Source: Cytophagales bacterium (lineage in GTDB: Bacteria; Bacteroidota; Bacteroidia; Cytophagales; Microscillaceae). Taken from it: DNA of 64,000 nt. The stretch spans positions 16,197-80,196 of the forward strand of contig JAAFJG010000014.1 of assembly GCA_013298075.1 (NCBI GenBank). Reading direction: 5' to 3'. Under the pieces are notes generated by a model. That model was given only the letters and a program-made list of their open reading frames with translations. It ran no database searches and had not been told where the DNA came from. The translations under genes and the position numbers were made by a program. Below are positions 36,781 to 60,674 of this stretch, in pieces. Each line of letters opens with the position of its first letter. The stretch's first letter is position 1.

Positions 36781-37060
36781 TTTTTTCTACTATAGATAGC
36801 CATTTATTTTGAAAATATAGAAAAATATCAATTTGAAAAATAGAGAGATTTTGGCTAAAGCCAACAATTGAATTTTATATTATCCTCCAGATAAATCTGG
36901 AGGCAATTCAAGATAAATCTGGAGGCAATTCAAGATAAATCTGGAGGCAATTCAAGATAAATCTGGAGGCAATTCAAGATAAATCTGGAGGCAATTCCAG
37001 ATAAATCTGGAGGCAATTCAAAAAAAAATATTTTTCGCACAAACTTCCTAATAACCAATA
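36781..37060 (+). repeat. Repeat family F, copy F2, with tandem expansion
   Basis: The conserved left half (ATTTTGGCTAAAGCCAA, then GAATTTTATATTATCCTCCAG) and right end (GCACAAACTTCCTAA) match the other F copies at 43.7, 57.1 and 59.2 kb. Here the hairpin part has been amplified to six tandem 22-bp units (36889-37020), enlarging the uvrB-methyltransferase intergenic space. Confidence 0.8.
36889..37020 (+). repeat. Six-unit 22-bp tandem array
   Basis: Six consecutive units, each containing ATAAATCTGGAGGCAATTC, are identical except for one terminal base in unit five. There are no spacers. Confidence 0.95.
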
Positions 37061-40989: not shown

Positions 40990-41060
40990 AATTTGATAAT
41001 GACATTTCTTTTATTTTTCTCCTTGGTCTGTGTGCCACATACCGAGGAGAAAAATTTTTA
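40990..41060. mobile_element. Truncated family E remnant with D hairpin
   Basis: One E terminus (ATTTGATAATGACATTTC at 40991 onwards) is followed by an imperfect D palindrome (TTTTCTCCTTGGTCTGTG to CCGAGGAGAAAAA, 41014-41056). The rest of the element is missing. Confidence 0.6.
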
Positions 41061-55074: not shown

Positions 55075-55218
55075 TGATTTTTTTTAGTTTTTGAATAAAT
55101 TTTTTATTCTTTTTTTATTTGTCTATATTAGAATAGCAAAGTTACATATTTTTTTATAAAAAAAAACATTTTTGGATAAATTTATTCAAAATAAATAAAA
55201 TCATTGTTTTTTTTAATA

Positions 55219-55348
55219 GAGTTTTTTAAATGGTAGCCAAAAATTGACAAAAATGATTAAAAAGTCGAGAAAAAAGAAAAAAAATCCGTATTAATCCGCT
55301 AAATCCGTGTTATCTATGTGCTAAAATCTCTTTCATTTAAAAAATACT
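55219..55348 (-). mobile_element. Repeat family C, copy C1 (MITE, 130 bp)
   Basis: Ends GAGTTTTTTAAATG and CATTTAAAAAATACT are inverted repeats. The target duplication AATA flanks it (55215-55218 and 55349-55352). The body carries AATCCGTATTAATCCGCTAA and is non-coding. It is in the opposite orientation to C2 on the other side of metK. Confidence 0.85.
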
Positions 55349-56940: not shown

Positions 56941-57069
56941 AGTATTTTTTAAATGAAAGAGATTTTAGCACACAGATAACACGGATTTAGCGGATTAATA
57001 CGGTTTTTTTTCTTTTTTCTCGAATTTTTAATGATTTTTGTCAATTTTTGGCTACCATTTAAAAAACTC
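56941..57069 (+). mobile_element. Repeat family C, copy C2 (MITE, 129 bp)
   Basis: AGTATTTTTTAAATG at the left and CATTTAAAAAACTC at the right are inverted ends. TAAT target duplications lie at 56937-56940 and 57070-57073. It is nearly identical to C3. Confidence 0.88.
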
Positions 57070-57094
57070 TAATGTAAACACTAAAAAAAGTGGT

Positions 57095-57252
57095 TCTTAG
57101 GAAATTTGTGCTGAAAATGAAATTTTTTTTTGAAATCTATTTTTTGAATTGCCTCCAGATTTATCTGGAGGTTAATATAAAATTCAATTCTTGGCTCTAT
57201 CCGAAATTTTTATGTTTCTCAAATGGATATTTTTCTATATTTTCAAAATAAA
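57095..57252 (-). repeat. Repeat family F, copy F4
   Basis: This is an inverse-orientation copy starting CTTAGGAAATTTGTGC and carrying AATTGCCTCCAGATTTATCT and GGAGGTTAATATAAAATTCA. It has a single intact hairpin. Confidence 0.78.
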
Positions 57253-57314
57253 AAGATATTCATACATAGACTAAAATTAGCTCCGCAATAATTTCATAAG
57301 AACCAAAAAAATTA

Positions 57315-60311: not shown

Positions 60312-60395
60312 CCTCGGTCTGTGGCGCACAGACCGAGGCGAAAGAGAAAAAAATAAAATACACTACTCCTACTACTTTGTCTGTGGCACACAGAC
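60312..60395. repeat. Family D palindromes
   Basis: A perfect hairpin CCTCGGTCTGTG-GCG-CACAGACCGAGG lies at 60312-60338, and a second shorter one (TCTGTGGCACACAGA) lies at about 60380-60394. Together they resemble the double structure at 46.35 kb. Confidence 0.8.
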
Positions 60396-60403
60396 CAGAA
60401 CAA

Positions 60404-60674
60404 AATTTGATAATAGTATTTTTTAAATGAAAGAGATTTTAGCATACAGATAACACGGATTTAGCGGATTAATACGAATTTTTTTCTTTTTTCTTGAATT
60501 TTTAATGATTTTTGTCAATTTTTGGCTACCATTTAAAAAACTCTAATGACATTTAGTTAGCGTAAAAATTTGCATCAAGAAAATTATCAAAAATTACCAC
60601 ATTTTGAACAGCCTACCTTGAAGGAATAATAAAACAAACATCTTTTTACAAAATTAAAAAGTCGTTATCAGACT
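60404..60674 (-). mobile_element. Family E copy E4 interrupted by C3
   Basis: One terminus (AATTTGATAAT) ends at 60414 and continues as GACATTTAGTTAGCG from 60548; the family C element sits in between. The rest contains GCCTACCTTGAAGGAATAAT and the other terminus GTCGTTATCAGACT (60661-60674). The interior D palindrome is missing from this copy. Confidence 0.72.
60415..60543 (+). mobile_element. Repeat family C, copy C3 (MITE inside E4)
   Basis: This is a 129-bp element with the same inverted ends as C2 and TAAT duplications at 60411-60414 and 60544-60547. The flanks join into an uninterrupted E-family terminus if the element and one TAAT are removed. Confidence 0.88.

Follow-up and report, generated by a model that had tools for sequence, protein, structure and literature searches.

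A complete copy of the miniature inverted-repeat element (MITE) family C has inserted at positions 60415–60544 of the window (the whole 64,000-nucleotide stretch of DNA that was analysed), splitting the left end of a family E element that was there before it and duplicating three base pairs of target. It seems very probable to us that the whole event followed a single course: C would be a non-autonomous miniature inverted-repeat element on whose 15-bp terminal repeats an IS5-family transposase, supplied in trans, would act; this transposase would join C to a staggered ANT target, leaving a 3-bp duplication; and C would in this case have entered an AAT in the left terminal repeat of E, a MITE that is unrelated to C and older than it, and thereby split it. 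The locus is an instance of ordinary MITE nesting by transposition; the bacterial genome is rich in repeats, and natural empty sites document the event well. Empty and filled sites together fix, for two abundant MITE families, the boundaries, the target duplication and the age of one relative to the other.

A family C element within a family E terminus

The features referred to below are as follows (window coordinates; strand where one applies).

60404–60406: left flank of E, AAT (ANT)
60407–60414, plus strand: left piece of E (TTGATAAT)
60412–60414: left AAT of the C target-site duplication
60415–60544, plus strand: C element (MITE, family C), 130 bp, complete copy
60415–60429, plus strand: AGTATTTTTTAAATG, the terminal inverted repeat at the left of C
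60530–60544, minus strand: right terminal inverted repeat of C, minus-strand reading AGAGTTTTTTAAATG
60545–60547: right AAT of the C target-site duplication
60548–60671, plus strand: right piece of E, with end GTCGTTATCAG (terminal repeat, one substitution)
60672–60674: right flank of E, ACT (ANT), middle base mismatched to the left flank
40992–41055, plus strand: uninterrupted left end of E, TTTGATAATGACATTT..., then a GGTCTGTG hairpin; a right end was not found
727–931: complete E copy lacking C, of the long type (205 bp)
56941–57070, plus strand: second C copy of the window, with AAT on both sides
55218–55348, minus strand: third C copy of the window, with ATT on both sides when read in the orientation of the element

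The earlier note had described a family C MITE inside a family E terminus, and this is confirmed by the exact ends of the element, AGTATTTTTTAAATG...CATTTAAAAAACTCT, and by the matching AAT on either side. The terminal inverted repeats of C are 15 bp long with 13 identical positions and two mismatches (AGTATTTTTTAAATG versus AGAGTTTTTTAAATG). Deleting C was further said to restore the E terminus, as it does: removal of C and one of the duplicated triplets from 60407–60671 yields TTTGATAATGACATTT, the uninterrupted terminus found at the left end of E at 40992 and in E copies across the genome. The note's intact terminus at 40991 is indeed an uninterrupted left end (beginning at 40992), but it comprises only that end and a hairpin rather than a complete E. 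The interrupted E measures 132 bp after subtraction of C and one AAT. Its right end is mutated (TATCAG) and its flanks are AAT and ACT, so that E's own duplication is not clean at this place. Judged by reading of the translations, the neighbours of the insertion are a putative thymidylate synthase gene on one side and a gene for a putative LutB-like iron-sulphur protein on the other.

Family C and its target-site duplication

Copies of C and E were collected from searches and from chosen stretches of the same genome, and all copy numbers are lower bounds. We read at least 57 distinct complete C copies of 110–132 bp, devoid of a transposase gene. The copy at 60415–60544 is 95–98% identical to its 39 best other copies. 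Sites resembling the terminal inverted repeat (up to two mismatches) numbered 333, versus 272 for the reversed pattern, and we did not take this figure as a copy number.

The duplicated target had been given as the 4-bp TAAT, and TAAT does stand on both sides of C at this locus, with T being the commonest base at left −4 (39/57 copies). Flank statistics over the 57 copies tell otherwise. When matches were compared with expectation for each combination of a left with a right flank position, a single pair proved correlated, left −2 with right +2, which is the middle base of a triplet: it matches in 45 copies versus 24.4 expected (permutation p < 1e-5; 0 of 100,000 reached this value). Constant A and T around this pair define a 3-bp duplication ANT, mostly AAT or ATT (here AAT). 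The right-hand base in question, the last base of C, is T in 57/57 copies, yet A, C or G occupies left −4 in 18 of them; TAAT therefore includes one base of the element, and covariation of left −4 with this last base was not seen among the 57 copies. At another locus (L105), CATT on the left faces TATT on the right, and a 4-bp duplication is excluded there because the base before the left triplet is C. We thus regard a TAAT duplication as very unlikely. Given a 3-bp duplication, C is 130 bp long, not 129: the right boundary had been placed one base off.

The flanking triplets differ in 12/57 copies, as recombination between copies could produce, which raises the possibility that recombination between repeats, or gene conversion, brought C here instead of transposition. 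We consider this highly improbable at 60415–60544, where the duplication matches, the ends are exact and the joined flanks are identical to the uninterrupted terminus; transposition remains the preferred reading.

The interior of C (window 60440–60490) contains imperfect ACGGATT repeats (ACACGGATTTAGCGGATTAATACGGATT), for which a full-text literature search found no paper on interior repeats of this type. Relatives of C with 71–80% identity, similar ends and many copies occur in G002, another genome of the same genus, and in G009, whose genus is a different one within the family, and the number and spacing of the ACGGATT repeats vary between these genomes (L152, L153). Exact-pattern scans of genome-contig and viral-contig collections for the termini of C and E gave no match.

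Nesting and order of insertion

Family E has terminal inverted repeats and multiple copies, and 29 complete spans were read, two of them overlapping; C is absent from 26 of these 29. The claim of an insertion would have been at odds with C lying at the same place in every E copy, which is not what we found. That C belonged to this E subfamily from the start, with the copies lacking C derived by deletion, is scarcely credible: a few other E copies do hold C (L061, L103, L105), but most complete E copies are without it, the 57 or more sites of C lie mostly outside E, and within E it takes up at least three different positions, which contradicts this notion.

The proposed order, E before C, is backed by the uninterrupted E copies, by two further nested loci and by the greater homogeneity of C. 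At L061, the arrangement TTTGATAAT|C|GGCTTTTTAATTTTG places C at exactly the same spot of the terminal repeat, with a complete E downstream; this site was hit independently by C. At L105 (AACATT|C|ATTATTC) the junction is clean, and the joined flanks, AACATTATTC, equal those of other E copies. A third C, in the middle of E at L103, leaves five extra bases relative to the standard E after simple removal, and was therefore left out as an empty-site case. Mean pairwise identity is 94.6% among the 57 distinct complete C copies, far beyond chance, versus 84.0% in E, which is in line with E being the older family, even if the exchangeable E interiors lower the latter figure. An E or hairpin motif lies within 30 bp of 8/57 C copies, a count that comes without an intergenic background and from which we claim no preference.

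The E copy at L105 that holds C also carries, at about 1540–1760, an insertion that belongs to a third family of repeats, with the ends GGTTCTTAGGAA ... GAACC; it reads as having an 8-bp ATATTTAT duplication. A repeat similar to this third family lies at 57091–57305 of the window.

A probable IS5-like source of transposase for C

The earlier note had suggested looking for a transposase gene with the same terminal repeats; N- and C-terminal fragments with the termini of C were found, but no full element. At two loci, ANT-AGAGTTTTTTAAATG is followed by MEKVDKKRVTKVSIYQNLSNDQQYKASTGLTISEFSTLF, the start of a transposase-like reading frame. In one (L130) the start codon of this frame is lost, and in the other (L125) the frame is interrupted by another repeat, which also ends contig C145. 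The 39-aa peptide beside the C terminus had no match by itself in Pfam and none among plasmids. Relatives of it from within the same taxonomic order are parts of two-frame IS5-type transposases with Pfam matches to HTH_Tnp_4 (1e-6) and DDE_Tnp_4 (8e-11 and 2e-11), and one relative IS5-type copy (L202) has AGACC/AGACT ends and AAT/AAT flanks.

The other extremity was seen at three contig ends (C4, C31, C145), which are identical over 125 bases; these extend from an IS5-like C-terminus (TALWNFKIKDKISI*) to ...CACCATTTAAAAAACTCT|ANT. The terminus there reads ...CCATTTAAAAAACTCT|ANT and the frame ends in ALWNF..., similar to IS5 C-termini in the relatives, a resemblance recognised by eye over about 14 residues rather than by a scored match. 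The identity of these 125 bases suggests recent activity. A complete IS5 element with C termini was not found in the assembly, and a PF13359 search of the same genome was negative; the fragments stop at contig breaks or at another repeat. Since contigs stop where multi-copy elements begin, the full insertion sequence has probably collapsed and is missing from the assembly. An IS5-family insertion sequence is the likely source of transposase for C, and we infer that its transposase mobilises C because the two share termini and target-site duplication.

Two large CRISPR arrays, one of 164 repeats (L143, contig C145, 1–12165) and one of 61 (L144, contig C31, 1–4638), both begin at a contig break inside this same IS5-like element. 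Contig C4 likewise ends in it, within a gene whose product reads as a DNA methyltransferase. C would be tied to an element that looks recently active, with identical ends at both arrays and at the putative methyltransferase gene.

Relation to known elements

Families C and E appear to be undescribed so far; the kind of event is well known. BrickBuilt of Porphyromonas gingivalis is a non-coding, multi-copy MITE derived from the IS5 family, whose terminal repeats match IS5-family elements of its genome and which may nest in other mobile elements (PMC4596501). C likewise is non-coding and multi-copy, with terminal repeats that are probably of IS5 type, a likeness drawn from the description only. 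However, BrickBuilt duplications vary in length and sequence (PMC4596501) whereas that of C is a constant 3-bp ANT, and BrickBuilt has a minisatellite interior of a kind that C lacks. ISCaa3 of Amoebophilus asiaticus, an IS5-family element with two overlapping frames (PMC3196728), resembles the relatives of the peptide linked to the C terminus in its two-frame IS5-type transposase and short terminal repeats. In contrast to C with its ANT duplication, the direct repeats of the ISCaa IS5 elements are given a length of 0 (PMC3196728).

Family E and its putative IS630-like partner

E, too, duplicates ANT: the middle base matches in 16/29 spans (p = 0.0008), although it does not at 60407–60671. Four contigs (C5, C62, C90, C116) end in an element whose terminus, TTGATACCGACTTTTTAAATTTGT, is close to that of E and which codes for ...KKELKELAINALNEIKNSEKLVKSFFNV... 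Among plasmids, the sole matches to its 29-residue C-terminal stretch were the C-terminal parts of IS630 transposases, and these were weak (E 0.3–4). In ISAzo32 (IS630 family, Aromatoleum aromaticum), 27 residues near the C-terminus are 52% identical (...LVKSFF...; weak, E 0.3), and the terminal stretch TACYRACTTTTTAAA is similar to that of the E partner. IS630 elements usually duplicate TA. The flank correlation of E, by contrast, falls on ANT outside TTGATA, as tested on the MITE E and not on a complete autonomous element. Given the weak matches and ANT in place of TA, the assignment of the E partner to IS630 is tentative, and E may match the end of an IS630-like element. We consider it doubtful that MITEs served by an IS5-like and an IS630-like element both duplicate ANT in one genome, one of them landing repeatedly in the other's termini; if true, the IS630-like element would depart from the usual TA duplication.

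E copies (e.g. L090, L095, L106, L112, L093) have common ends and exchangeable middles. In some the middle is a palindrome, CCTTGAAGG; in others it is a hairpin, GGTCTGTG...CACAGACC, present once or twice, or the segment GAACAGCCTACCTTGAAGG. Outside its genome, E gave short weak matches only. The E hairpins also occur outside E, at 841–871 and 60316–60335 of the window. A tandem array of a 22-bp unit, TCAAGATAAATCTGGAGGCAAT, at 36864–37039 of the window has the appearance of a CTCCAGATAAATCTGGAG hairpin repeat of which one arm has expanded.
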